Shown piece after piece: positions 471-64,000 of a stretch of DNA of 64,000 nt; the stretch's first letter is position 1; each line of letters starts with the position of its first letter. Made by a program: the position numbers and the translations under genes. The notes beneath the pieces were generated by a model. That model was not told the origin of the DNA and did no database searches. It saw only the letters and a program-made list of their open reading frames with translations. Source of the DNA: Carettochelys insculpta (taxonomy: Eukaryota > Chordata > Testudines > Carettochelyidae); the NCBI RefSeq assembly GCF_033958435.1, contig NC_134147.1, forward strand, positions 43,456,001 to 43,520,000, in the 5' to 3' direction.

Positions 471-606
471 GTCTGGCTTTGGTCTGAAGAAGTGGGTCTG
501 TCCCACAAAAGCTCACCTAATAAATTATTTTGTTAGTCTTTAAAGTGCTACTTGACCGCTTTTTTGTTATGATAGTATATAGACTAGAACGGCTCCCCCT
601 CTGTTA
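471..606 (+). mobile_element. PLE terminal repeat with decayed hammerhead motif
   Basis: This follows the ORF remnant in the same orientation. It carries CTGAAGA (484-490), a perfect 5 bp stem II (GTGGG at 492-496, CCCAC at 502-506) and then AAAA where the hammerhead core needs GAAA. The TTAGTCTTTAAAGTGC block (about 531-550) and the ACTAGAACGGCT block (about 583-594) are the conserved tail also seen in copies at 9.3, 21.1, 35.5, 45.9 and 60.3 kb. Confidence 0.65.
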
Positions 607-919
607 CATTCATCACTGTTATGTCTGAGTGCCTCCAAGTAACACGTGAAGAAGTGTGACTAACATCTGTCTCTCATTGCCTCCCTCGGGGAAAAGTGTG
701 CTGGAATTTTTGCTCTCTATAGATTAGAATAACTGATTTTTCAGCTCATTGACCCAAGCAAAAGGTTTGGGAGTAGGGGGAGGAGAAAGGAATTGTTTTG
801 GGTCAGGCCAAAACGAGCTTTTAAAAAACTCTTTTATGAATGGAAACGAGTCATCAGAAAATGGAAGCGAAATAAACGTTTGCTCCGAATGAAACATTTT
901 GTTTCATTTTTGAATTTCA

Positions 920-7695: not shown

Positions 7696-9285
7696 TGGGT
7701 CTCTCCAGGTCCAGGGCAGTGCCTGGCTCAGCAACAGCTTGGGGGAAGTAGCCCTCAGCCTGTGTCTGTTTCCTCCTATGGTGCTGCCCTGACTGAGTTA
7801 GAGGCCCTGCCTCTCCTACTTTCTGTTCCACCCTGGCACTTATGGGGTCAGAATAAGCTTGGGCTGGCTTGACACACTCAGGCAGGGTGATTGGCGTCTC
7901 ACCCTCTCGCCAGCCAGGAGGTCACACTGGCTCCCTACAGGCTGAAACAGATTAACATTTGCTACTTCCAAGTTCCTACAAAGTTCAGGCTGTATTTGGC
8001 AAAATGTTCACTGACCTTTGGCTGCTTTTAATTATGCTCAAAAACTAGCTCTGGCTAATTTTGTAAGCAAATTTTGCCCAGCTTATGACTTCTGGAAGTG
8101 TAACTTCTCCTTCCCCAGCATTTGCTCGATCTCCTGTGAACCAAGACAATTAACTTCCATAAGACTTCATTCACAAGTGAAAATTAGTTCAGTAGCATCC
8201 AGGTCCCCTAATGCTGTTTGCATAGAAGAGGATGGATAAAAATCACAGTGAATGTTGTATTTTAGATAAATGTAATTTAGATATTTAAAGTTTTCTCCCT
8301 GTTATCGCATCTATTAAAAAACCCAGGTGGCCTTGTAACAGTGTATGGTAATAATTTACATGTCTTTTTTTCTGAGCTCCCTTTTGTCCAGCTGCTACAG
8401 ATTTCTGGTGAATGTAGTATTTTGTTCTTCATGCCTCCAGAGATGAACATGAAATGTGCTGTATATAAAAGGATGGTTCTCCTCTTGTCTGCAAACAGAA
8501 ATAACAGTTTGCAGCTTTGGTACAACTTATTTTCTGATCACAGCTGAAATTTGGATTCTGAATGTCTGTTGAATGTCAAGTAAAAAGCAGCAGTGCTCTG
8601 TATCTGACAGAGGAACTGGCTTGGATTTAGGATCATCCCTACAGAAGACGTCTTTCGGCTTTGTTTGTTTTCCGAGCAATGTCTTATTTTGAAGCATGGG
8701 ATTTATTCTTTGTTGTATTAGGAAGAACAAAACAGCCCCCTTCAACTAGTGGTATAATGGGATAATTTACAGACAAATATCACCCTTCACTGTCAGATGA
8801 TACAATGAAACTAATTCGCTCCTGTGAACAGAGGAAATAAATGCAGTTCAGTAAATAATAACTTCTTAACAAGTTTTCTGAGAACTTCAGTCAAATTCCT
8901 GTGTTATTTCTCTTGAGTGATAAGCCCATATATTAGCATTTTTTCTAAGCAGTCTAGATCAGTACTCAGATAAGCTTATATTTGTTCATGTACAACTGCA
9001 TGTACAAAACTATAGGTTTGTGCATGCATGTACCTAAATAAATATATACCACACACAGGCCTGGCCCCACAGCCTTTTCTTACCTGGAAGATCAGAACAC
9101 ACACGGGAGGTGAAGGTCGGCATTTCTGCATTTACCTGAATGTAAGGAGCATGCATTGCTGAGCAGTTGTGGCTCTAGACACTGTTGTCAGGCTGTTTAG
9201 GAGGCTGTTTCTCTAGTTTGCATATGACTTCCTCCTTGCAAGAACACCTGCAGTTCCTGTGAAAAATCTCACCCTGGGATCTTCC
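7696..9285. other. Non-coding stretch, nothing recognised
   Basis: AT-rich towards the right. No gene or clear repeat was found before the PLE fold-back. Confidence 0.4.
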
Positions 9286-9466
9286 CAAACAACAAGCAGT
9301 CCCATAGCACCTTAAAGACTAACAAATTTATTTACTGGGTAATGAGCTTTCGTGGGTAAGATCTGCTTCTTCAGGAAAGCTCATTACCTAATAAATACAT
9401 TTGTTTGTCTTTAAGGTGCTACAGGACAGCTTGTTATTTGTGAAGCTACAGACTAACACAGCTACT
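9286..9466 (-). mobile_element. Fold-back PLE terminal repeat, older copy
   Basis: The left arm 9286-9351 and the right arm 9375-9440 are inverted copies matching at about 58 of 66 positions. They are separated by a 23 bp loop and followed by an antisense head segment (CAGACTAACACAGCTAC, 9450-9466). On the minus strand the loop holds CTGAAGA (9368-9374), a damaged stem II and GAAA (9348-9351), the order of a hammerhead core. No clear target-site duplication was found. Confidence 0.75.
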
Positions 9467-10579: not shown

Positions 10580-11483
10580 AGTCACTTTGGGCTTACCATC
10601 AGCCTAAAGAAGACGAACGTACTTTGTCAGGATGTTGTTGAATCCCCATCAATCACTGACAACTATACGTTAGAGGTCATCCACGAGTTCATTTACCTTG
10701 GGTCCACCATCACTGACACCCTGTCGTTGGACACTGAGCTAAATAGGAGGATTGGAAAAGTGGCCACAACTCTGTCCAGACTCAGCAAGAGAGTGTGGAA
10801 TAACAACAAGCTGTACACTCACACCAAAATGCAAGTCTACAGAGCCTGCATCCTCAGCACCCTCCTTTATGGCAGCGAGACTTGGACCCTGTATGCCCGC
10901 CAGGAAAAGAGGCTGAACGTCTTCCACTTGCGCTGCCTCAGGCGCATCCTTGGAATATCATGGAAGGACAGAGTGACCAACACCGCTGTCCTCGAGCAAG
11001 CTGGAATCCCAACCATGCACACCCTCCTCAGGCAGCGTCGACTCCGCTGGCTTGGCCACGTCCACAGGATGAACGATGGAAGGATTCCAAAAGACATCCT
11101 GTATGGTGAGCTAGCCTCTGGCAAAAGACCTCCCGGACGCCCCCAGTTGCGTTACAAAGATGTCTGCAAGAGAGACCTCAGAGAGGTAGACATCGAGCTG
11201 GACAACTGGGAAGAACTAGCAGATGACCGCAGCAGATGGAGGCAGGGGTTACACAAGGGCCTTCAGAAGGGCGAGATAAAGATCAGACAGCTAGCAGAGG
11301 AGAAGTGAGCGCACAGAAAGTACACTAAGGACTTGCCAGACACCCACTACATCTGCAAGAGATGCAGCAAGGACTGTCACTCTCGTGTGGGTCTTCATAG
11401 TCACAGTAGACGCTGTAAATGAAGTCCTCAATTGAAACTTTAAAGGGCGCGATCCATAGTCTATGCAGACCAAAGGATGCCTA
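10580..11483 (+). mobile_element. 5'-truncated LINE with 13 bp target-site duplication
   Basis: The insertion is flanked by the direct repeat CTAAGTGACTTAA at 10567-10579 and 11484-11496. It consists of the 3' part of a reverse-transcriptase ORF, a short 3' UTR and the end GGATGCCTA. A second copy of the same 3' end, about 95 percent identical, is at 56591-56790. 5' truncation plus a 13 bp duplication is the normal outcome of target-primed reverse transcription. Confidence 0.92.
10586..11422 (+). pseudogene. LINE ORF2 C-terminal fragment (RT thumb region to zinc knuckle), one stop
   Basis: The frame is open from the truncation point and codes for the part of a non-LTR retrotransposon polyprotein that follows the RT catalytic motif: FGLTISLKKTNVL, then FIYLGSTI, LLYGSETWTL, FHLRCLRRILGI, LRWLGHVHRM and KRPPGRPQLRYKDVCKRDL. 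An in-frame TGA at 11306-11308 interrupts it. Past that stop the same frame continues to TGA 11420-11422 and encodes a C-terminal CKRC-x12-H-x4-C zinc-knuckle-like motif. The catalytic YADD region and the endonuclease are missing, so the copy is dead. The element type is RTE/Nimb-like by overall look; I cannot fix the clade. Confidence 0.85.
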
Positions 11484-20716: not shown

Positions 20717-21073
20717 TGTCAAAGCTATTCCCCGCTCTGACACTCCAGGTGCAGAAGGTGGGAGCCCACAAGAGACCTTAAAAATACCTTGTCTCTTTAG
20801 ACTTCTGTTTAAAAGCTTCCCAAGGTCACAGAGTCCTTGACCCAGGGAGGAAGCTGCCACCACACAAGTGAGAAAACCCCTCTTTAAAACCCAGGCAGAC
20901 ACATCTGGGAAGTCTCCCTGTGGGGTAACCCCAAGATCTTAACCCTCCCGTAGGAGAGAGCTTGAGGAAGAAATTAAGCTGGAATCTGATAGCTGACCTT
21001 TCAGTCCTAGGCATGCATATTCACAGGCCCTTCCCTAGGACACAGAAATCAAATCATTACCTTAAAAATAAAG

Positions 21074-21271
21074 TATCAGAGAGGCAGCCACGTTAGTCTG
21101 TAGCTTCAAGAACAGCAAGAAGTCTTGTGGCACCTTATAGACTAACAGATATTTTGGAGCATAAGCTTTCCTGGGCAAAGACCTGCTCTGATGAAGCAGG
21201 TTTTTGCTCACGAAAGCTTATGCTCCAAAATATCTGTTAGTCTATAAGGTGCCACAAGACTTCTTGCTGTT
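21074..21271 (+). mobile_element. Fold-back PLE terminal repeat, nested in LTR copy A
   Basis: Flanked by CTTAAAAATAAAG at 21061-21073 and 21272-21284; the last three bases of the right arm overlap the duplication. A 34 bp head (TATCAGAGAGGCAGCCACG...) is followed by a left arm (21108-21170) that is a perfect 63 bp inverted copy of 21212-21274. The central loop carries a + strand hammerhead-like core. The arms are identical, so the copy is young. Confidence 0.88.
21188..21225 (+). ncRNA. Minimal hammerhead ribozyme-like motif, stem II damaged
   Basis: In order: CTGATGA (21188-21194), a 17 nt stem-II region, GAAA (21212-21215), a two-pair stem III (GC-TTAT-GC) and TC. The core and stem III match the minimal hammerhead reported from Penelope-like elements, but stem II keeps only about three of five pairs (one wobble). 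Self-cleavage is doubtful. Confidence 0.6.
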
Positions 21272-21339
21272 CTTAAAAATAAAGATTTATTAACAAAACA
21301 AAAGATTTGTGATAAAGCGTGCAGGTGTAGTACCCACAG

Positions 21340-22072: not shown

Positions 22073-22735
22073 TAGAATCATAGACTCAAAGAATCACAGG
22101 GCTGGAAGGGACCTTGAGGGGTCATCGAGTCCAGCCCCCTGCTTCAAGCAGGATCAACCCCAACTAAATCATCCCAGCCAGGACTATGTCAAGCTGGGAC
22201 TTGAAAACCTCTAGGGTTGGAGATTCTACCACCTCGCTAGGTAACGCATTCCAGTGCTTCACCACAGGCCTGGTGAAGAAGTTTTTTTCCTAATATCCAA
22301 CCTACTCCTCTCCTTCTGTAACTTCAGACCATTGCTCCTTGTTCCACCGTCTGTCACCACTGAGAACAGTTTCTCTCCCTCCTCTTTAGAGCATCCCTTC
22401 AGGAAGTTGAAGGCTGCTAACAAATCACACCTCAGTCTTCTCTTCTGCAAACTAAATTAGCCCAAATCCCTCAGCCTCTCCTCTTAGGTCATGTGCTCCA
22501 GCTCCCTAATCATTTTGGTTGTCCTCTGCAGGACCTGCTCCAGCACATCCACATTCTTTCTCTACTGGGGGGGCCCAAAACTGGACGCAATACTCCAGAT
22601 GTGGCCTCCCCAGTGCCGAATAGATGGGAACAACAATTTCTCTAGAGCTGCTCGAAATGCTCCTCCTCATGCAGCCCAATACGCCGTTGGCCTGCTTGGC
22701 TCCAAAGGCATGCTGTTTACTCATATCCAGCCGTC
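22073..22735 (-). mobile_element. CR1 LINE 3' end, antisense
   Basis: On the minus strand the RT C-terminus is readable: FGAKQANGVLGCMRRSIS, RPHLEYCVQFWAPP and, further on, LFSVVTDGGTRSNGLKLQ, separated by indels. The 3' UTR ends in GACCCCTCAAGGTCCCTTCC and the repeated ATTCTATGA-like tail, here GATTCTTTGAGTC. 5' truncated near 22735, directly against a PLE fragment. Confidence 0.9.
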
Positions 22736-22736
22736 C

Positions 22737-22820
22737 CCATGAAGTAGGTCTTTGCCCACAAAAGCTTATGCTCCAAAATATCTGATAGTCTGTAAGGTGC
22801 AACAGGACTTTTTATTGTTT
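22737..22820 (+). mobile_element. PLE terminal-repeat fragment
   Basis: It begins inside the hammerhead box (ATGAAGTAGG...), keeps CCCACAAAAGCTTATGCTCC (GAAA mutated to AAAA) and runs on through ATAGTCTGTAAGGTGC to about 22820. The CTG of the first box is missing. Confidence 0.7.
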
Positions 22821-22859
22821 CTGGTTTACTGTGTTATCCTGTAACCCTTCTATTAATGC

Positions 22860-23567: not shown

Positions 23568-24004
23568 GGCTGGGTCTACACGTGCCCCTTTCGAAAGGGG
23601 CATGTTAATGAGCAGGTTTGAAATGTGCTAATGAGACACTGCAATGAGTATGTAGCACCTCACTAGCATAATGGCAGCCACAGCAATTCAAAAGTGCAGC
23701 TTTTTGAATACCACACCACCGGTGGAGACCGCACCTTCCAAAAGGACCCCCCCCCCCCAGGTTTGAAAAGCTCTTCTTCAGATCACCAGATAGGAAGAAG
23801 GGCTTTTGAAAACTGGGGGGGGTCCTTTTGGAAGGTCTCGTCCCCACAGGTAGCATGCCATTTGAAAAGCTGCACTTTTGAATCACTGCAGCTGCCATTA
23901 TGCTAATGAAGCACTGCATATTCGTTGCAGCACTCCATTAGCATATTTCAAACCTGCTCATTAATATGCCCCTTCAAAAAGAAGGAGAACATGTAGACCC
24001 AGCC
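23568..24004. mobile_element. Palindromic MITE, nearly complete
   Basis: Left and right halves of about 215 bp are inverted copies of each other. Both ends read GGCTGGGTCTACAYGT, and AAC flanks the element on each side (23565-23567, 24005-24007), consistent with a 3 bp Harbinger-type duplication. Inner blocks TTAATGAGCAGGTTTGAAAT and CCTTCCAAAAGGACCCCCCC occur in both halves. Confidence 0.85.
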
Positions 24005-28140: not shown

Positions 28141-28295
28141 CAAGGTAACATCTTTAGTTAGACCAACTTCTACTGGTGAAAGGGAAGTTTCCAAGCTACA
28201 CATGTTCAGAACCTGAACCCCGAAAGCATGTCTCTTCCACCAACAGATGTTGGTCCACCGAAAGATACTACTTCACACACCTTGTTGCTCTAATG
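28141..28295. mobile_element. Fold-back of a second PLE terminal-repeat family
   Basis: The left part (GACCAACTTCTACTGGTGAA) is an inverted, diverged copy of the right part (TCCACCAACAGATGTTGGTC), with the outer ends CAAGGTAACATC and ACACACCTTG also inverted. On the minus strand CTGAACA (28209-28215), a short stem and GAAA (28188-28191) follow the hammerhead order; the right arm also has CGAAAGC. This matches a widely distributed vertebrate PLE-type repeat and is older than the copies at 21.1 and 35.5 kb. Confidence 0.55.
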
Positions 28296-29974
28296 CCCTC
28301 AGCAGGACTGACAGAAGTGCTTCACCAGTGTGGGGGAGAGCCCCCACAGGTTGCCCCCACGGTGGGCCCACTGCTTCCACTGCCCTCTATCCCTGACCCT
28401 CTATCCTCACACCACCTCTTCCCTTGAAGTCCTCTTCCTGTACTGTCCTTCCCCCAAAACTCCACTCACCCCTGCTTGCACCTAGCTCTTCCTTCCCCCT
28501 CCAGCCTTAGCTGTAAAATGTTACGGGGCTCCTGATTCTGGGATCACTATGGCTACAATGTTACTTTCAGTCTATTCGCCTAAAGGAGCACACACACACA
28601 CTGCTTCTTGGACTGGCCCTTGCAGTCTAGGGCTGAAGCTGGTCCAGCTACAGACATTACTTCCCCCACTTTGACCCTCCGCACACTGGTCACCGAGATT
28701 CTTCCTGCATCCCATCACACAGCGATTCCCAGACAATGAAAAATGCTGTTGACATCCAGTACATGATAAAAGCGTCAATAAATGAGACGCTGGTAATGTT
28801 TTCAAACTTTCTTAAGGACCTTTCCCCAAAATGGAATATCCACACACAGAAAAGCTATTAATGTACTGAAAAACCTAATTGAAGTTTGAGTCACATTGAA
28901 GCCATTATAAGTCTCTCTCATGTACCCAGCATTGATTTCACTCCTGACTCAAAGGATGTGTAGTTTGATACGTCCTGAATCCCATTAACAGAGCCCTATG
29001 CATGCGTGCCATTTGTGAGGTTTGAAAACAAGAGTACCCTTTTAATCCATTTTAAATCCACAGGACTTATATCTTATTGAGTCTGAGCAAATGATGGTGG
29101 ATGGAAACAGTATGTGCCACCAGGCAGATGGCTTTTTAAATGCAATCGCTAGATTTTGGCTATATTTCTGAACTGGCAGGAAACTTCAGTAGATTACTTT
29201 GTTGGGTGGGTAATGTATTGTTAATAAAGCCTAAGGGCTAGAGGAAGAGAACCTTCAGTTTAATCATTTAGTAATATACTTACACTGTCCATTATAGATT
29301 TGTCAGTGGTCATAAACAAACTGCAGTTTTATGCAGAACTAACTATACTGATATTTTCTCACCTACAGCTTAAGCAATCTGTAGATGAGATACAAGTGAA
29401 GAGCTCTTCCATTCAGGGAATTCCTGGCTGCCTTGATGTAATAAGAAGCAATCTTTATGTAGAGGACTTTAGATAGTGAACATATTCGGAGCTACACTGC
29501 AAGTTTTCAGAAAGCCGCTTAAGATGCAAACTGCAACTAGAGGAATTCTGTTTTGTAATTTATATCTTGTTCAGTCAAGAGCAACAAGCTTCCAGGAACA
29601 TCCTATCATGTAATGTTTTTCTTTTTACTTTCATTTAAAAAAAAAAACTTCTGTCCTATAACATTTCAAATTCCTTTCAGAAGACGCACACTTTCTCTTT
29701 CTCTCTACAAATTCCGGCGTGTCTCAAACAAAGAATATGCTTCCCCTCTGTCGAGTCACATTGCTTTCTCATCTGAGTCTCCCAGCAATGTCACTCTGCA
29801 TGGAGCCCTGTGCTGGAAACTGGATCACCAATTAAGGCTTGAAAAACTGATTTGTTGCTACTCTGATCCTGAAGAAGAAATGTTTTACTTTGTTTTCCTT
29901 TTGAAAAAGGACTTAACTTAAGAGGAGCCTGAAGAACTTATGTGGTGGTGGTGGCAGTCAATGTTCCAGCTATT
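28296..29974. other. AT-rich non-coding stretch
   Basis: No gene or clear repeat is supported. Open frames are short. Confidence 0.35.
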
Positions 29975-35492: not shown

Positions 35493-35504
35493 AATCATAG
35501 TATA

Positions 35505-35697
35505 CAGCAACGAAGGGTTCTGTGGCACCTTATAGACTAACAGAAAAGTTTTGAGCATGAGCTTTCGTGAGCACAGACTCATCATGTGCTCACGAAAGCT
35601 CATGCTCAAAACTTTTCTGTTAGTCTATAAGGTGCCACAGGACCCTTCGTTGCTGTTACAGATCCAGACTAACACAGCTACCTCTCCGATACTTGAC
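35505..35697 (-). mobile_element. Fold-back PLE terminal repeat, young copy
   Basis: The direct repeat AATCATAGTATA flanks it (35493-35504, 35698-35709). The left arm 35505-35575 and right arm 35585-35655 are inverted copies matching at 70 of 71 positions around a 9 bp loop (GACTCATCA). An antisense head (TACAGATCCAGACTAACACA...) follows on the right. On the minus strand the first hammerhead box reads ATGATGA instead of CTGATGA; GAAA and the GC-TCAT-GC-TC stem III are intact. Confidence 0.9.
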
Positions 35698-35709
35698 AAT
35701 CATAGTATA

Positions 35710-41699: not shown

Positions 41700-42100
41700 G
41701 GGGTCCCTGGCAGCCCCGCAGTGGGGTGCTGGCTGGGGCACAGAGCCTTGCTGGCAGCTCCAGCCCTGAGAACCTGGCCAGGGGAACCCCAGCAGCCCTG
41801 TGGCTGGGAGCTCTGCCAGCAGCTCCAGCCACCAGGGACCCTGCCAGGGCAGGGGGAATCCCAGCAGCCCTAAGGCTGGGACCCAGTCAGGGTGCGGAAC
41901 TGTGCTGGCAGCTCTAGCCCTGGGGACCTGGCCAGGGCCTGGAAAATCCCAGCAGCCCTAAGGCTGGGACCCAGTCAGGGTGCGGAACTGTGCTGGCAGC
42001 TCTAGCCCTGGGGACCTGGCCAGGGCCTGGAAAACCCCGGCAGCCCCAGGTCTGGAAGTCGGCTGAGGCACAGAGCCCCACCAGCAGCCCCAGCCTGGGA
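41700..42100. repeat. GC-rich minisatellite, 72-88 bp units
   Basis: AAYCCCAGCAGCCC-type starts lie at 41785, 41857, 41945 and 42033. The units 41857-41944 and 41945-42032 are 88 bp and nearly identical; the outer ones are diverged. Open frames across it are Ala/Gly/Pro-rich and not credible as protein. Confidence 0.85.
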
Positions 42101-44334
42101 ACCCCCGTGGAAGGAGGGGAAGTGGGGTGAGGAGTCTTCTGAATACTGGCTCCTCTTTTTTTTTTTTTTAAACAAAAAAGGCACTGGTGGTGGGTCTTTA
42201 GTGTCTGATATCCGTATACATCCTCAATGCAAATAGGACAATGAGGGTCAAGGAGAAACAGTCAAAAGGAAGATGTCATTTAACATTTCACAAAGCTGGA
42301 TCTGAACCCCAATTCTGCCAATGGCTTCCCTCCCTGGGCGGCTGGAACAATGTCTATAGTGGGCTGCTGAGAGCCACTGAACTGAGCTGCATATCTTGTA
42401 TGTGATGAAAACTACTTCAAGTCTGGGGGTGCAACAGCACCCCTAGCACCCCAGTTCCAGCTCCTGTGTTCCCGCCTGTGCTTTTTTCTATTACCACTCT
42501 GGAGAAACATTGGAGCCCACTCCCCACAACCTAGGGATACGTTCCATCAGTAAAACATCAGACTAATGCACTCATTCTACACTGACATCCTGGGGAAACA
42601 TACGTATGATGGGAAAGATTTTATTTTTTCTCATCTGCCTTTTGAGGAATCATTCTAGGACTCAGAAGAATTGTCGTGCCGCATCTGAGATTCAGGGAAA
42701 CTAAACAATGATTAGAAAGTTTGTCTTTATTGCATCCATCTGCTTGGGTAGGATAAGGAGCAGTTCCTTATGATATATAGACGATAACACATCTGCCACT
42801 GGGAGTCCCAGTCCAGAGTGCTAACCCTCTTTAGTTTCTTTCTATTAGGCCCTAGACCAAAACAAAACAAAAACTGAAAATAAAAACAAAACCCCTGTAA
42901 CTGTGTTGCCTTTGCCAGGTCAAGTTCCCAGCACTGCAAGTTCCCAGCACTGCAAGCCAGATGAAAAATCCACACAGTCATGGCACCGTACGACATGTGT
43001 TTAAAAACATTCCAGTGTTTGTAATGGAGAGGTCATCCTTCATTATCCAGAGGCTTTAGGGACGAGACAGCAGTGAGCTATAGAACAAACACACCAGCCA
43101 CAAAAGAAAAAGGAAGCAGAGAAACATTTGAAACACTGAACAGCAATTAAAACCAGGAAGATTAAACTGCGGGGAATTTCAATAGCCTCAGTCTGAGGAC
43201 CTGCACTGGGCACCATTGAAATCAGGGGCAAAATCCCCCTAGGCTGGTAGATGGATTGGGCCCATGTTGTGCTACAATAAGCAAATAATTTTCTCTCTGA
43301 AGAGGGTGAAAGGGCTGTTTCTGGAGAAGGATGTAAGGGTTGCAAGAGCATGAATGCTGCATTGTAGGATGAGCAACAGTAGGGAGGGGTCTGATTCGAG
43401 GGGTGGGAAGGTGAGCAGACACCAGCTCGGAAACAAAAGGAAATTGGACTGCCCAGCCGGGTGATCCTAATGACCCCTCCTGGCCTTAAGATCTAAGCTG
43501 GTAAGTCTATGAAAGAGTCAGTTCACAATTAGCAGGCTCACTCAGAACTGCGAGCAGCAGTAGCCAGTGTGTGACTGCAGAGCCAACAGGCTGGGAGTGG
43601 GGCACGTGCAACCCTCCGGAAATGCTTCCGTGAGCACAGACGCTTGTCCAGTAACAACACTTCCTGGGGAGTCCTGCTCTTGCCCTGCTTTTCTGATCAG
43701 TCGAGCGTTTTGCATCTCGTCCCTCTTCAAAGTCCTTCTCCCTTGGAAATCCATTCAGAGGAACACTGCTTACACTCCAAGGAGTTTGACTTGTCTGTAT
43801 TGACCTTGCCCAGAGGCAACCGCTCGGTGTGATGCCAACACTTAGAGTAATGCCTTGCAGGAGGTGGATGAACAAACAGATGAATAGTCCATGGCTGGGC
43901 TGTGGACACTTGCATGGAACTGATACTTTTCCTCCTTTGATGCTGTTTGGCCCCCATCCAATGAGATCAGCATGCCTGGGGCCTCGGTGACTGAGGCTGG
44001 GGTTGAGGCCTCTGATTTTCTCACTACCATCCAGGAACCAGCAGGTTGGACTCACTTCTATGGATCCCAGAACCTGCCCTCTCTTTGGGGCCCTTTTAAA
44101 ATGCCAAAACTAATCTTCCCAAGCTTTTACAATACTTACAGGCCTGACTCAGAACCAGTGAGGTCTTTCCACTCAGTTTAGAGGGCTTTGGATCAGGCCC
44201 TGTGGTACTGGCATTTCTCAGTGCACAGGTCACCTTCACAAGAGACATTTCACTGTTTCTTACTACAAGTTGCACCACTGAAAATGGCATTTTCTTGTCC
44301 AGTAACATCTGTGGTCCAGTAGGACAGGAGGATC
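42101..44334. other. Non-coding stretch
   Basis: No gene is supported. A 182-codon minus frame at 43507-44055 has no family resemblance. CAAGTTCCCAGCACTG is duplicated in tandem near 42919-42955. Confidence 0.35.
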
Positions 44335-45200: not shown

Positions 45201-45847
45201 TTTCATGCTTCCCCCACACACACCACGCCCAGCATACTCAAAGCCCTCCCTGACTTTTCATGATCACTGCTGGCCACAGCAGCAGAGTTCTCCTACGCTC
45301 CTACACAGGCGTGCAGCCTGAGGCACAGCCTAGGCCATCAAAATGACAAAGTAACGTTTGTGGCTTCAGTCTGTGAAGGCTCTGGGTTGAGCAGCAAAAC
45401 ACCAAGCACGAGGGCATGCCGCTGGGTACCATTAAAGATGATGTCCCGTGGTGACTAGATATTAAAGGCTTGATTCTTCATTCTGAATTTCCACCCGCAC
45501 TTGGGCTCAGCCATTTCTTTTAATGTAGAATTTTATGGGCATTTCCAGGGGGATTTTTCTGTTTATGTTTTATTTTAGTGCTGATGCTGAATCATCTAGA
45601 AACTGAGGCCTGGGTTGGGTTTCAATGTGCTTTTAGAAATTATCTGCATGCACAGATCAACCGGAATTAGAAGTGAACCTTATACCTGTTTTTTAATTAT
45701 TATTGTTTTTGGTTAGTGTCCCTCCAATTCACTCCCAGTCATATTGCATGGAACTAAAAGTATCTGGCCCCTCACGCTCCTGAGCCACTCAAAGTTTGTT
45801 ATTCTCTGTATCTCTCAGTCCACCCTTGTACAGAAAGGTCCTTGGGG
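45201..45847. other. Non-coding stretch, nothing recognised
   Basis: No gene or clear repeat is supported. Confidence 0.3.
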
Positions 45848-45936
45848 TTGCTGTTCTTCAGTCTGTTAGTCGATAAGGTGACACAGGACTTCTTGTTGTC
45901 AAAGATGCAGACTAACTCGGCTACCTCTCTGATACT
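45848..45936 (-). mobile_element. PLE terminal-repeat fragment (head and outer arm)
   Basis: On the minus strand it reads TATCAGAGAGGTAGCCGAGT, then AACAAGAAGTCCTGTG and CACCTTATCGACTAACAGAC, and breaks off before the hammerhead part. Confidence 0.7.
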
Positions 45937-46029
45937 AGTCTACAAAGCGTTGCAGCGGTTTGCCTTACTTTGCATTCCATGCTATGGGTTTTGGGACAAA
46001 TAAAAGTTCCTGTGCGCAGCAGATAACTT

Positions 46030-50841: not shown

Positions 50842-51038
50842 GTATATCTCAGAGCTGGAAGGGACCTTGAGAGGTCATCGAGTCCAGTCCCCTGCCCTCA
50901 CAGCAGGGCCTATCACCATCCCTGACAAATTTTTTTTTTAATCTAACTTGCCCCAGACTCTTGAAAACGCCCCCTGCCCCCGCAAAGGCTGAGCTCACAA
51001 CTCTAGGCCAATGCTCTAATCACTGAGCTATCCCTCCC
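50842..51038 (-). mobile_element. Cry-type tRNA-derived SINE, antisense
   Basis: Minus strand: GGGAGGGATAGCTCAGTGAT, then TTAGAGCATTGGCCTAGAGT (tRNA-like head with a deletion), and a CR1-type tail GACTGGACTCGATGACCTCT with CAAGGTCCCTTCCAGCTC. Confidence 0.8.
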
Positions 51039-52576: not shown

Positions 52577-53029
52577 ATGAAAAGAGCAACAAGAATGATA
52601 AAGGTCTAGAGAATACGGCCTGTGAAGAAAGGCTGAAAGAACTGGGCTTGTTTAGTTTGGAAAAGAGAAGATTAAGGGGAGACATTATAGTGGTTTTCAG
52701 GTATCTAAAAGGGTGTCATAAAGAGGAGGGAGAAAACTTGTTCTTCTTGGCCTCTGAGGATAGAACAAGAGGCAATGGGCTTAAACTGCACCAAGGGAGG
52801 TTTAGGTTGGGCATTAGGAAAAAGTTCCTAATTGTCAGGGTGGTCAAACAGCGGAATAAATTGCCAAGGGAGGTTGTGGAATCTCCATCGCTGGAGATAT
52901 TTAGAACAGGTTAGATAGATGTCTATCAGGGATGGTCAAGACGATAGCTGGTCCTGTCATGAGGGCAGGGGGCTGGACTCAATGACCTCTCGAGGTCCCT
53001 TCCAGTCCTAGTATTCTAGGATTCTATGA
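52577..53029 (+). mobile_element. CR1 LINE 3' end, sense, nearly intact frame
   Basis: The frame ending at 52914 reads the CR1 RT C-terminus ([68 protein letters not shown]). The 3' UTR ends AATGACCTCTCGAGGTCCCT then TAGTATTCTAGGATTCTATG, the CR1 tail. Well preserved, so relatively young. Confidence 0.92.
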
Positions 53030-58181: not shown

Positions 58182-59562
58182 GGTGGAAAAGATCCTCAGG
58201 TCCTGTCTCCTGCAAAGGCTTTTCTACCTGCCTGTCCTTAATCAGTGATCTCTCTAGGGCAGGGACTGTGCTTTCTTCTCTGTTTAGAAAGTGCTTCTCA
58301 GGGGAGAGATCCAGAACTCATCTCCTGACTCATGCCAAGAGCCAGACCAAGTGAGCCCTGTTGGTCCTGGCTAAGGAGCATAAAAGTGTTTGGAGGAGTG
58401 ACTCTGCAGCAACGTAGTCCTGCAGAAAAACAGTTACTTTATTGTTATTTAAGTTAACAATAAGTGTGGCACTGGGAAGAGGCCATGTAGCACCCAAGAG
58501 TACTGTGAGGAGCAGAATGGGATGCCTGCCCACTTACATCAAGGTATTATAGCTTTGGTAGGAAAACACTCCTCCCCTAACCATATCTGTCATACTACAT
58601 AATACAGCACCAGAGTTGTTTCTACAGAGGTTTTCAATTTTTTTCCCCATGAGAGGTTCTCTCAGATCCATTTGCTAAGGGCAGCCACAACTCATGTGAT
58701 ATTCACATGGAGCCCAGATGAGTTTAGCCGGGGGAGGGTTCTCACAAAGAAAATCATGCAGACCAGTGCAGAGAATAACTAACACCCTGTTTCCAGCAGA
58801 AACAGTCTCTTCCCACATGTGGGTTCAGACTTGTTGCATGATTTTGATCAATTGGGTCTTACTTTTGATTAACAGCCATGCAGAAAATTGCACAAAAACT
58901 ATAAACCCTTCTCTCCTAGCTATGCCGCTGTGTCTCATGTTTAGCAGACCTATTTAGCATTTGATCTCTGGGGCATTTACTCAGCCTGGTCACTGATTCA
59001 GCCATACTGCACAACCCAAGACTGAGAGGCATATCGCAGCCCTATGACTGGCAGGTTGGACAGCCAATTGGAGGGACAGCTGAAGCAGATTAGCAAACGC
59101 TAGGCAGTTATTTGAAGGCTAAGACAGTGCAGTGCCACCAGCTTTCAGGTCAAACACAGAGCAGCTGCGGATTTTTGTAATAAAAATTCCCAATTAGAAC
59201 AGACAGGCAGAACGCTTAAAGAGATACAAATGGACAAAGTACTAGGCAGAAGAGTCTATGTGGCTATTTGAAGTTCTTTTGGGGAACTTGCTCACAATGT
59301 CAGCTGCCCTGCTGAATGTTGCCACTCACCCATTTCCAACTGCAGTCTATAGCTGGTGTTGTACCTCCCAAAGTTTGTTCCGGATCCCCAGGCCTCCAAA
59401 GAGGATGGATTTGGGCATTGAAAGTCCAGTTAGACCAGGACTCAGACCCTATCGCAGGACAGACTATTTTTTATTTATGTCTGTACATCACTTAACAAAG
59501 TGCCCCCCAACACCTCAATAGGGGATTTTAGACACTACTGTGATACAAATAAAGTTCCAAAG
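58182..59562. other. Non-coding stretch, nothing recognised
   Basis: No gene or clear repeat is supported. Confidence 0.35.
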
Positions 59563-59680
59563 TAACAAGCAGTCACATAGCACCTTACAGACTAACCAAT
59601 TTATTGGATTATGAGCCTTTGTGGGTAAGACCTCCTCCTTCAGATGACTGGAGTAGAAAAAATAGAATCCAGGGTTTATT
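59563..59680 (-). mobile_element. PLE terminal-repeat fragment with leader
   Basis: Minus strand: the 5' leader CCAGTCATCTGAAGG, then TTACCCACAAAGGCTCATAA and GTTAGTCTGTAAGGTGC. The hammerhead boxes are decayed (GAAA reads CAAA). Confidence 0.65.
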
Positions 59681-60338
59681 GCGCAAGCAGGGAGGAGAGA
59701 GGAAAGGTTAAAAAAAAAAAAAAGTTACCTGTTAGTAGTAGGATCAGTTGATTAAGCACATTAATTAGTATGTGTCCCATTCCTGTGAATATCAAAGGTG
59801 AGGAAATTGCCCTTGTAATGCATAAGATACATGAGATCTCTGTTGAGGCAGAGGCTAAGTGTATCAACTTTGCAAATGAATTCCAATTCAGATGTCTCTT
59901 GAAGTAAAATTCTTCTATAGAGGAATGGCCACTTTTAAATACATTCTTGATTGGCCAAGGAGGTTTGTGTTCCCATTCCTGATGGTGGATTTATATCCAT
60001 TCATCCAAAGTCATTTTAGTGGCCATACAACTATATCTGGGGAAAAGGAGCAGAGACAGGAAGACTGGATACAATACCTTTTACTCAGATCAGCTAATGT
60101 CTCCTGCACTTTTGGTACTAGAACACAAGCTTCATGGTGAAGCAAACCCCCTGTTCATTTGGGCTGTCTTTGGAGTTTAGTGAAACAAGTTTGGGTTCAG
60201 ATATCTCTAAGCAAGAAAACCATTCCAACAACAGACTGCTAGGGCATGACTGTAGTGATAGTCTGTCCATACCTTTCACAGCATTGGTTTCTGCACACCT
60301 TCTTCTATTCCAGTACCACAGGTTACCTTAGTATGCAA
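59681..60338. other. Non-coding stretch with A tract
   Basis: Nothing recognised except an A tract near 59709-59722. Confidence 0.3.
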
Positions 60339-60495
60339 GTATCAGAGGGGCAGCCGTGTTAGTCTGGATCTGTAACAGCAACGAAGGGTCCTGTGGCACC
60401 GTATAGACTAACAGAAAAGTTTTGAGCATGAGCTTTCGTGAGCACAGACTCACTTCATCAGATGCTGGTCTTGGAAATCTGCAGCATGTATGCAT
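60339..60495 (-). mobile_element. Linear PLE terminal repeat with target-site duplication
   Basis: CTTAGTATGCAA flanks it (60327-60338, 60496-60507). Read on the minus strand: a leader of about 34 bp, a hammerhead core (60424-60461), the TTAGTCTATACGGTGCCACA block and the head ending GCTGCCCCTCTGATAC. No inverted arm is present, so it is the unfolded form of the elements at 21.1 and 35.5 kb. Confidence 0.88.
60424..60461 (-). ncRNA. Minimal hammerhead ribozyme motif
   Basis: On the minus strand: CTGATGA (60455-60461), stem II of five perfect pairs (GTGAG/CTCAC, hexanucleotide loop), GAAA (60434-60437), two-pair stem III (GC-TCAT-GC), then TC. Every invariant core base of the hammerhead is present and the predicted cut follows the C at 60424. 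Stem I cannot be formed well by the neighbours, as expected for the minimal PLE type thought to act as dimers. Activity is not shown. Confidence 0.75.
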
Positions 60496-60507
60496 CTTAG
60501 TATGCAA

Positions 60508-62231
60508 AGAACCAGAGAGATCTGAAGCATGAGGGAAAAGAGTTAGAGGGCGGGTGGCAAGAGTCTGGCAGACTGTAACATAACATCTTACAGCAGGCTG
60601 TGCAGGAAGCAAAGAAGGTCTTATTTGTCTCAACTCCAGAATCCCAATCAGCAGCAGTATTCTGGGTGGTGAATGTTTTTCTCCATTTAGGAACCAAATT
60701 CAGTGTTTCTTGCTATTCACACTTCATTCATAGGTAAAAGCACTTGGACTGCTGAGGAAGAGCTCTTTGTAGCTCAGAAGCTTGTCTATCTTACCAACAG
60801 AAGCTGGGCCAATAAAATATACTGTTTCACCCACTGTGTCCCTCTGAAACCAAATTGGGCTTTCAGCTTCAGGGAGCAAAGAGCTTGTTTCCCGATCAAG
60901 TTTCATCTGGGGTCCGTTAATGATGGTCTGGAGATGCTGCAAAGTTTTGGCTTATGGAAAGCAAGTTAAGCCCTTGTCCTTTTATGGTGGGAAAATTCTA
61001 ACAGGGAGATATGTTGGTTTAGGCCTGTCATCACCTTTCTGTGGAAAGCCCGGGTGCTGGCTTCTCTTTAGGAGCTGGTTTGAAGAAGCTGTTTTTCATA
61101 ATCTCTTAAACAATAACATACATTGAAAACCTATGTCAAATGCCAGAACTAAGGATGCCCATGAAACTTTAATTTGCCCCATGTTTGTGTGCCTTATGAG
61201 CAAGTCTTTTTAATCACCAGAAGACCCCTGATTTATGTAGTGCCAGCTTCCAGCAAACCCCTACCTTGTAAGCATGAGCTGCATTTTCCAAGGCCTCCAA
61301 CTTAGCCAAAATGTGATGGTTTTTCTCTAAGGCAATAAAAGGCACAAACCTGACATGAGGGCAAAAACCTTACCAAATTTTGGCTGTGCAGCATTGACAT
61401 GTTATAACTTCTCAGTAAAACACCTGTGAAAAAGTGAGAAGTCCAAACTTTTAATTTTTTCCCTAAACTCATTCTGTGAAATGACTGGGCTCCTTTTGCT
61501 GTAACTAACTAAACAAATCGGCTAAAGGCACACGCCCTTCCTGGGAAACTTCAGTCTGAACAGTTAAAATTTGGAAGAGTTATAAGCAACTGAAAACAGG
61601 GCCTTATAATGGAAAGAGTTAGGCAACCTTGCTACTAACTCCACCTCTGGTAACTAATCAAGGAAACTATGAACTAGTTGCAGTTTGGGCAATTCAAAAA
61701 AGGAAAAGATTTGGACCTGCCATGGAAAAGATGGATATTGTGAAAAATGTTGTCAAGCAGCCAGAAGAGATTTGCTCACAGCTTCTCCACTGGCACTAGG
61801 TGGACAGCAGTTAGCCAGCGCATCTTCTTTCACTCCGGCTGTTCCCCTGGCTCAATGCAAAGTAGGCTGGGGCAGTCAGGAGGGGAACATTGAGTTGCCT
61901 CAGTGCCCAAGAAAGGGAGAACCGGCTGGGGCAGAGCAGGTAAGAGCTGACCCGTGAATAGCGTGGGGAAGAGAATAGGAAACAGGGCCAGAAGAAGGAA
62001 GGCTAACGGATATGAAGAAGAATGGGGGACTCTGCTCTAAGAGCTTTTGTCTTAACCACTCATGAGCTCACTGAACAACTTGCTCCCATGTTCTCTCAGA
62101 AGCTCCTCTCGCCATAGCAACTCCCCAGGCTGCCTCCAGCCTCTCTGTTCCCACCCTAGCACCCCAGATTCTTGTTGCTTTGGGAAGTAACATCACCATG
62201 AACTCTATAATTACCACAATACCTCTGTCTC
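60508..62231. other. Non-coding stretch before the C-rich repeat
   Basis: No gene or clear repeat is supported. Composition shifts from AT-rich to GC-richer near 61.8 kb. Confidence 0.35.
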
Positions 62232-62269
62232 TGTGTGTGTGTGTGTGTGTGTGTGTACACACACACACA
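62232..62269. repeat. (TG)n(AC)n microsatellite
   Basis: About twelve TG units are followed directly by six AC units, so the block is self-complementary. Alternating purine-pyrimidine runs of this kind favour Z-DNA and cruciform structures. A shorter AC-rich stretch follows to about 62297. Confidence 0.95.
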
Positions 62270-62829
62270 AGAGAGAGCGCACATGCATACACACACTACT
62301 GGGATAAAGGGCTGTCACACACGGAGCAGAACCTGGCAGCTATGCACCTCTCCTCCACCCCCAGTGCTCCATGCCAGCATTTCTCAGAGGTCTTTCCACC
62401 TTCCCTTCCCAACCAACTCCCAGCGGCATCTCCCTCCAACCCACCCCAGCAGTTATTCCTTCCCCAGCATCTCTTTCCAGGCACCAGCAGCTTGGACAGG
62501 ATGTTTTCCCTCCCTCCACCTCGCACTGGAAAAAGGGCCAGGCGGCCTTTCCTTCTGTCACTTCCTCCCCGAGCCCAGCTTATCCCCATCCTCCAAAGTC
62601 ATTCCTGTCCCACTTCCTCAGCCACCAGCCCAGCTCCTTCCACCCTCCGTCCATCCCCTCAGCTCTCCTCGTCTCCCACCCCCAGCTCCTTCCCCATCTC
62701 AGCTCCTCACCATCCCCATCCTCCTTCCCTCAGTGCAACTCCTTGTCCCTGATTCCCCTACCCCCTGCCCAGCTCTGCTCCTCTCCCCCTTGTTCCCCAG
62801 CCCCAACCCAGCTCCCCTCCCCCTTTGCA

Positions 62830-63300
62830 TTTCACACATCTCCCCCATCCCCAACTTCCCTCCTCCCTCTGCACCCCACCCAACTCGCCCACCCCATCCC
62901 AGCTCTCCTTCCCCTCCCCCACTGCACCCCACCCATCTCCCCCATCTAACTCCCCTCCCCCACTGCACCCCACCCAACTTCTCTCAGGTCCCAACTCCCC
63001 ACTCTGCACCCCCCAACTCCACTCAGCCCGCACCTCCCCTTTGCACCTCGCCCAACTCACCCACCCCAACTCCCCTCCCCCACTGCACCCCACCCAACTC
63101 TTTCCTGCACCCCCCAGCTCCACTCAGCCCCCACCTCCCCTTTGCACCTCGCCCAACTCCCCTCCCCCACTGCACCCCACCCAACTCTTTCCAGCTCCCA
63201 AATCCCCCCTGCACTCCCCCAAACTCGACTCAGCCCCCACCTCCCCTCTGCCCCCCGCCCAACTCCTCTGCCCCGCAACCCCTTTGCCTCCCCAACTCCT
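62830..63300. repeat. C-rich, G-poor tandem repeat upstream of the CpG island
   Basis: The + strand is almost pure C/A/T with long C runs. Three higher-order units of about 101-104 bp start near 63004, 63105 and 63209 (each CTGCACYCCCC... followed by a CAGCCC..CACCTCCCCT block). A shorter block, CCCCTCCCCCACTGCACCCC, recurs at 62911, 62952, 63072 and 63159. C-rich sequence of the same general character begins near 62400. The minus strand is correspondingly G-rich, with many closely spaced G runs able to form quadruplexes. Confidence 0.85.
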
Positions 63301-63375
63301 CCCCCCCTTTGACAACCCAACCTCTCCCCGGCCCGGCGGGGCGGGGCGGAGCGAGGCGGTGAGCGCGCTCGCAGG

Positions 63376-63386
63376 GCGCCTGCGCC
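63376..63386. promoter_or_regulatory. NRF1-like palindromic site in the CpG island
   Basis: GCGCCTGCGCC closely resembles the NRF1 consensus (YGCGCAYGCGCR). Its position inside the CpG island, about 280 bp upstream of the start codon, is typical for such sites. Binding is inferred only. Confidence 0.35.
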
Positions 63387-63427
63387 AGCACTGCCGGGGG
63401 CTGCCGGCTGGAACGGGACGGGCTGAA

Positions 63428-63463
63428 ATGGAACAAGCCCGCGGCGCCTTTGTAGCGGCTTAA
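63428..63463 (+). other. Candidate upstream ORF, 11 codons
   Basis: An ATG with A at -3 and G at +4 opens an 11-codon frame ending in TAA, about 200 nt before the MAGI-like start. It only matters if transcription starts upstream of 63428, which cannot be decided here. Confidence 0.35.
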
Positions 63464-63572
63464 AGGAGCCGCAGCCGCCGCGCGGGGTCGGTGCCGCCCG
63501 GGCGGAGGGGCGGCCCCAGGGCCGAGCCGCGGGCGGGGCGGGGCCGAGCCGAGCCGAGCCGGGCGCAGCAGG

Positions 63573-63581
63573 ATGGCCTGA
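63573..63581 (+). other. Minimal upstream ORF (ATG GCC TGA)
   Basis: A two-codon reading frame, Met-Ala-stop, lies 90 nt upstream of the main ATG. Its context (A at -3, G at +4) is as good as that of the main start, so scanning ribosomes should often initiate on it. A minimal uORF of this kind could lower or regulate translation of the scaffold. Confidence 0.45.
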
Positions 63582-63998
<417 letters not shown>

Positions 63999-64000
63999 CT

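Follow-up and report, generated by a model that had tools for sequence, protein, structure and literature searches.

Minimal type I hammerheads of Penelope-like elements were reportedly described by Cervera and De la Pena in 2014 and by Lunse et al. in 2017. Published Penelope-like hammerheads are without helix III (PMC6155905; PMC7761336). In PAc, a Poseidon element of Anolis carolinensis, an ORF opens at stem II and reverse transcription sets in 111-118 bp inside it; both target strands are cut and extended in vitro, and the start sites do not differ from one strand to the other (PMC11167929). The PAc hammerhead cleaves in vitro with protein and not without it; the single mutations C3G and G8C abolish cleavage, which the double mutant partly restores, and hammerhead mutants still insert in vitro (PMC11167929). 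In the Penelope elements of Adineta vaga an optional 31-bp tail is found at one of the inverted pLTRs, and self-priming on an antisense template has been proposed for the inverted copies; the paper never uses the word hammerhead (PMC3846280). Among tortoises, Testudo graeca is listed with 139,606 Penelope copies over 30.0 Mb (PMC11315351).

The DNA analysed here is a 64,000-nucleotide stretch of Carettochelys insculpta (NC_134147.1, positions 43,456,001 to 43,520,000), which we call the window. It holds a dispersed repeat, family A, whose copy A8 is an additional example of a type of self-cutting RNA already known from Penelope-like elements. We put the probability at about 0.8 that A8 is a now dead insert of the Penelope-like pseudo-LTR/ORF-start kind, with a minimal type I hammerhead that would have been cut as a dimer after C60430. 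Likened by description, A8 and the minimal hammerheads of Penelope-like elements have in common the core, the want of a usable helix III of their own and dispersed non-coding copies, and dimer action has been proposed there as it is here; A8 differs in having an extra A ahead of stem II. With PAc, by description, the repeat shares a hammerhead at the pLTR/ORF start, two end points bounding the tail, and a stem-loop, and in family A the tail ends about 115-119 nt from where stem II begins, a spacing that compares with the PAc start-site distance given above; PAc has an ORF, whereas none is recognised at the repeat copies. Head-to-head copies, target duplications and a tail that is optional on one copy are likewise shared with the Adineta elements. 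This reading of A8 shifts the likely cleavage site and suggests a reason for Rfam missing the motif, and the repeat provides a readable family for testing the role of Penelope hammerheads.

The hammerhead motif of copy A8

Read on the minus strand from 60466 to 60425, A8 contains a complete hammerhead core in the order AGCAT-CTGATGA-A-GTGAG-TCTGTG-CTCAC-GAAA-GCTC-ATGCT. Its features, all on the minus strand, are as follows.

60496-60507, target duplication, 5' copy, by flank comparison
60336-60463, tail-bearing repeat copy A8, by alignment to the consensus
60462-60466, stem I, 5' strand AGCAT, pairing at 5/5 positions with 60429-60425
60455-60461, catalytic core CTGATGA, by sequence
60454, extra A between CTGATGA and stem II, by sequence
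60438-60453, stem II GTGAG/CTCAC with loop TCTGTG, 5 bp plus a possible T-G pair, by covariation
60434-60437, catalytic core GAAA, by sequence
60431-60434, AGCT, self-complementary, proposed intermolecular stem III, by conservation of GCT
60429-60430, proposed cleavage site, after C 60430, placed by the stem I register
60425-60429, stem I, 3' strand ATGCT, pairing with AGCAT
60357-60413, stem-loop TGTTAGTCT...AGACTAACA preceding the 3' tail, 9 bp, in MFE and centroid folds
60327-60338, target duplication, 3' copy TTGCATACTAAG, by flank comparison

The sequence-only reading had reported CTGATGA, GAAA and TC in this order, and they are indeed found at 60461-60424 on the minus strand; it had also listed a perfect 5 bp stem II next after CTGATGA, and the stem holds, with the extra A at 60454 intervening. 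All core residues (CUGANGA, GAAA and UH at the cleavage site) are present together with one extra A, which recurs in A1, A2a, A3b, A4, A7 and B1 of the copies listed further below. A similar extra A, between A9 and helix II, is found in the plus-strand hammerhead of the viroid CChMVd, which differs from A8 in possessing a normal helix III where A8 has no usable one.

The loose primary core pattern occurs 4 times in the window against 4.43 expected, so the argument depends on the stems. When stem II of at least 4 bp was demanded and one optional A was allowed following CTGANGA, the site of A8 was the only one in the window, with one dimer-type and two hairpin-type readings; the same scan with no inserted base behind CTGANGA missed it. 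In the dimer-type reading, which takes a self-complementary A-xy-U as stem III, stem II scores 6 and stem I 5. When the window was dinucleotide-shuffled 1000 times and both strands were scanned, this register, which was picked after the site had been seen, gave 10 matches, 1 of them with stem I of at least 4 and 0 with both stems at 5 or more, and hairpin-type matches numbered 119 (4 with stem I of at least 4). IMG/VR viral contigs served as a further chance background: of 32 exact occurrences of CTGANGA-N6-24-GAAAGCTYATGCT there, 25 of them distinct, none had a stem II above 4 bp, or 2 bp if an A was skipped, or a stem I above 1 bp.

A search of the window with Rfam models, the check that the sequence-only reading had itself proposed and whose negative outcome it had counted in part against the motif, returned no hammerhead at the gathering threshold or up to E 10. 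The Rfam hammerhead models presumably expect a helix III. Up to E 10 there were 35 sub-threshold matches, several of them to miRNA models over the inverted dimers, where they probably reflect merely hairpins. Exact patterns for the family A repeat matched nothing in IMG/VR or GTDB genome contigs, that for the similarly laid out family B was likewise unmatched in the prokaryote and virus contig collections, and blastn of the repeat against phages, plasmids and E. coli genomes found none; these being prokaryote and virus collections, absence of the repeat from them is expected.

Stems I and II covary in the hammerhead register among the few copies that retain their own 5' flank (A8, A1, A4, A7 and B1, with loops removed); dimer arms, in which the junction takes the place of a 5' flank, were not included. 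In these five copies the two stems are paired in 72% of cells and two-sided changes affect 7/10 stem pairs, giving a covariation score of 0.450 against 0.183 when shuffled (0/500 shuffles as high) and at most 0.178 with slid partners. A second run dropped B1, which is not firmly homologous to family A, and the four family A copies still showed two-sided changes in 5/10 pairs, four of them in stem I and mostly due to A1, with a score of 0.317 against 0.155 shuffled (1/500) and at most 0.148 with slid partners. Stem I is unevenly kept: 13/15 positions are paired in A1, A7 and A8 together, which 1/50000 random flank sets reach, while A4 keeps 0/5 and B1 1/5, so that adding A4 gives 13/20 (equalled by 299/50000) and adding both gives 14/25 (equalled by 1781/50000). 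The rows being few, related and hand-delimited, covariation lends support rather than proof.

The sequence-only reading had made stem III a short hairpin and put the cut after 60424, an assignment that we abandon: it leaves stem I with 1 bp and shows no covariation of stem III. Among the same five copies the hairpin is 60% paired and fully kept in 2/5, with zero two-sided changes, and in the second hairpin-type reading of A8 stem I has 2 bp. With AGCU taken instead as a stem III that joins two RNAs, the length of stem I rises to 5 bp (AGCAU/AUGCU), with two-sided changes in 4/5 pairs, and the predicted cut moves to C60430; the cut would thus probably lie a few bases from the earlier assignment, after C60430 rather than 60424. 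The GCT of AGCT is unchanged in 8/8 aligned rows, and the two arms of the decayed dimer B2, outside that alignment, are without it. Helix III would on this reading have shrunk to AGCU, paired with its counterpart in a second copy, and the RNA of the parent element would have cut itself as a dimer, either as a tandem transcript or as two RNAs, after C60430. A stem III of AGCU with no helix of its own fits the published Penelope hammerheads that lack helix III.

Computed folding does not favour the dimer. The 167-nt transcript 60334-60500 folds no better than its shuffles (z 1.18), nor does the whole 80-nt fold containing the pre-tail stem-loop (z 0.34). The MFE structures of 60334-60500 and 60400-60500 contain neither stem I nor stem II, that of 60336-60507 contains both in full, and pair probabilities are 0.07-0.25 for stem I, 0.11-0.41 for stem II and 0.02-0.15 for the hairpin stem III. 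By energies that omit tertiary contacts and protein, a double-hammerhead dimer comes to -19.1 kcal/mol, against -20.0 for two monomers with stems I and II only, and is bettered both by two monomer MFEs (-24.0 kcal/mol) and by the best dimer fold (-27.4), and it accordingly has no advantage; the AGCU dimer form is possible but gains no backing from the energies.

A monomer hammerhead closed by the hairpin AGC-TCAT-GCT and cut after 60424 therefore strikes us as highly improbable: its three pairs and four-base loop do exist in A8 and A4, but the single base pair left to stem I, the poor retention among copies and the low pair probability all speak against it. Less credible still, to the point of being nearly negligible, is a chance arrangement inside a repeat, for which the random frequency of the bare core pattern and the missing Rfam match could be cited, and which the shuffles, the IMG/VR background and the covariation tests contradict. 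The hammerhead motif of A8 is beyond chance, and the earlier observation, taken as a whole, is partly confirmed.

Copies of the repeat, their ends and their decay

Iterated nhmmer recovered 11 family A pieces at 8 loci of the window, and family B was found at three places (60745-60851, 28143-28310 and 28632-28680). The loci discussed besides A8 are these, with the arms of dimers lettered a and b in the text.

480-607, plus strand, A1, tail-bearing, core intact save G12 to A
9279-9465, both strands, A2, inverted dimer of a tail-less minus arm (CTGAAGA) and a tailed plus arm, duplication not found
21061-21284, both strands, A3, inverted dimer, 13 bp duplication CTTAAAAATAAAG at either end
22733-22823, plus strand, A4, tail-less, core damaged
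35493-35709, both strands, A5, inverted dimer, 12 bp duplication AATCATAGTATA at either end
45860-45939, plus strand, A6, tail-bearing, begins downstream of the hammerhead, no core
59555-59647, minus strand, A7, tail-less, core damaged
60745-60851, plus strand, B1, family B, with CTGAGGA, a 5 bp stem II and AGAA replacing GAAA
28143-28310, both strands, B2, degraded family B inverted dimer with its junction in the corresponding region

An earlier count of seven further sites with the same core stands for those at about 484, 9348, 21188, 22737, 35555 and 59600, and fails for 28188, which belongs to family B. Within the window A8 alone combines an intact core with intact stems: the first base of GAAA (G12) is A in A1, A4 and A7, the latter two of which have further core changes (A4 and A7), and stem II has mismatches in A2a, A3a, A3b, A4 and A7. 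G12 is preceded by C, which makes CpG decay the likely cause of its loss. A6 had been considered as starting exactly at the cleavage site, an idea that was dropped when its alignment match proved to begin further on. The flank immediately upstream of A6 (45820-45861) includes TTGCTGTTCTT, which is similar to the end of another, tail-less copy and may mark a partial tandem.

Aligned to the consensus, the 3' ends of family A fall into two classes about 35 nt apart, in line with the optional 30-40 bp tail of Penelope-like elements. Six ends bear it (A1, A3a, A5b, A6 and A8 at consensus 129-133, A2b at 118), and all five tail-less ends (A2a, A3b, A4, A5a and A7) lie at about 91-100, those of A3b and A5a having been set by the target duplication where the local alignment had run on into the flank. 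At the 5' side of A8, 34 bases separate the duplication from CTGATGA, the final five being stem I, and blastn of the A8 stretch upstream of about 60472 found no match to other copies. Single inserts are about 75-160 nt long.

Ten insertions of families A and B were tested for exact shared flanks. The 12 bp duplication reported earlier at A8 was recovered, as long a match being seen in 5/3000 random flank pairs; a TTG at its margin could be part of the tail. Clear duplications flank 3/10 insertions (A3 13 bp, A5 12 bp, A8 12 bp), that of A4 is weak (7 bp, 217/3000 random pairs as long), and for A1, A2, A6, A7, B1 and B2 of the ten the shared flanks were not above chance. Target-primed reverse transcription would, on this layout, start in the stem-loop near the tail and stop slightly upstream of the hammerhead. 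A8 itself is most likely a dead copy, an insert with no host function at its site.

Inverted dimers joined inside the hammerhead

A2, A3 and A5 are head-to-head pairs with inter-arm spacers of 17, 7 and 9 nt respectively, and in all three family A dimers one arm carries the tail and the other is tail-less. The tail-less arm has CTGANGA (in A5 with its C missing and a short deletion), and the tail-bearing arm begins within the hammerhead, at GAAA in A2b, at stem II in A3a and in loop II in A5b, as judged from boundaries read by eye. Two of the three (A3 and A5) are flanked by 12-13 bp duplications, so each of these represents one insertion; A2 has none, and B2, similar in appearance but decayed beyond assignment, has none either. 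Neither arm contains all of the other in A2, A3 or A5, which disfavours the snap-back of a single cDNA as their source, a proposal that one trimmed outer end could rescue.

We entertain, at rather less than even odds, the idea that two-strand target-primed reverse transcription from two RNAs, one of them tailed, left these dimers as its fossils, with the cDNAs joined inside the hammerhead. Using two RNAs held together, the enzyme would prime on each cut strand of the target, starting with the tail on one RNA and without it on the other, and the cDNAs would then be joined head to head; the dimer-forming hammerhead would also mark, or help set, the joining point. Two separate reverse transcriptions so joined directly explain the arm structure of A2, A3 and A5, and self-priming on an antisense template would also suffice if one tail were lost on integration. 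The two arms of A2 are unlike at 11/76 sites; A7 sides with A2a at 8 of these and with A2b at 1, in a comparison made post hoc with the data already seen; this hints at two templates for A2. The remaining eight copies split between 3:4 and 5:2 over these differences, and the arms of A3 (3 sites) and A5 (1 site) differ too little to inform on templates. A limited literature search found no report of inverted junctions within a hammerhead. Such junctions can be counted genome-wide, and self-priming and two-strand priming predict different arm structures.

Probable Penelope-like affinity and other features of the window

From its anatomy, which agrees with published accounts of Penelope elements in 5' truncation too, the repeat is likely of Penelope-like origin. 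The sequence-only reading had seen a minimal hammerhead in a Penelope-like repeat, and the tail, the duplications, the inverted partners and the covarying stems bear this out, while a match to proteins or model libraries did not materialise; its interpretation, taken as a whole, is partly supported. Neither the ORF next to A1 nor 20/357 ORFs of at least 60 aa matched a reverse transcriptase or GIY-YIG domain, weak evidence of absence given that all copies are short pieces. The ORF beside A1 lies at 1-480 on the plus strand in the first frame, open from about 187 in the same orientation and through the A1 hammerhead; we took it to resemble the part of Penelope proteins that links the reverse transcriptase to the endonuclease, an assignment that domain and protein searches left unsupported, with no protein relatives among candidates of 0.55-1.75 times the query length. 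The abundance of the repeat would be in keeping with the Penelope load of Testudo graeca (PMC11315351).

Two other accounts deserve weighing, both of which we judge unlikely and about equally so. The segment might be a partly palindromic stretch kept for priming or joining in reverse transcription, its hammerhead likeness a by-product; the inverted-dimer junctions do fall inside it, palindromes at inverted junctions have been tied to self-priming (PMC3846280), and the insertion of PAc hammerhead mutants in vitro (PMC11167929) agrees. A by-product would, however, hardly be expected to have all CTGANGA and GAAA residues correctly placed and stems covarying in hammerhead register, and the PAc motif does cleave in vitro when protein is present (PMC11167929). 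The repeat might equally be a non-autonomous element of retrozyme or SINE type that carries a hammerhead and is mobilised by another retroelement. The shortness of its inserts and the want of a recognised ORF would suit such an element, and type I hammerheads are known in animal retrozymes (PMC7229834); yet the optional tail and head-to-head arms are those described for Penelope elements (PMC3846280), and Tandem Repeats Finder shows no tandem monomers at the repeat loci. An insert of Penelope-like origin with a dimer-acting hammerhead is the reading that we prefer to both.

The window holds several further features. An inverted repeat at 23588-23981 has 167-nt arms that are 80% complementary and 60 nt apart. 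One dispersed repeat occurs at 22078-22142, 50855-50910 and 52950-53029, which we take for a 3' portion of CR1, an element typical of reptile and bird genomes. A 242-aa open frame at 10580-11305, perhaps a retroelement remnant, has a sub-threshold match to DUF6451 (17.8 bits against a cut-off of 28). Minisatellites lie at 41816-42103 (88-nt units) and at 62910-63266 (39- to 101-nt units), the latter in a C-rich stretch, the GC content over 60001-64000 being 0.55.
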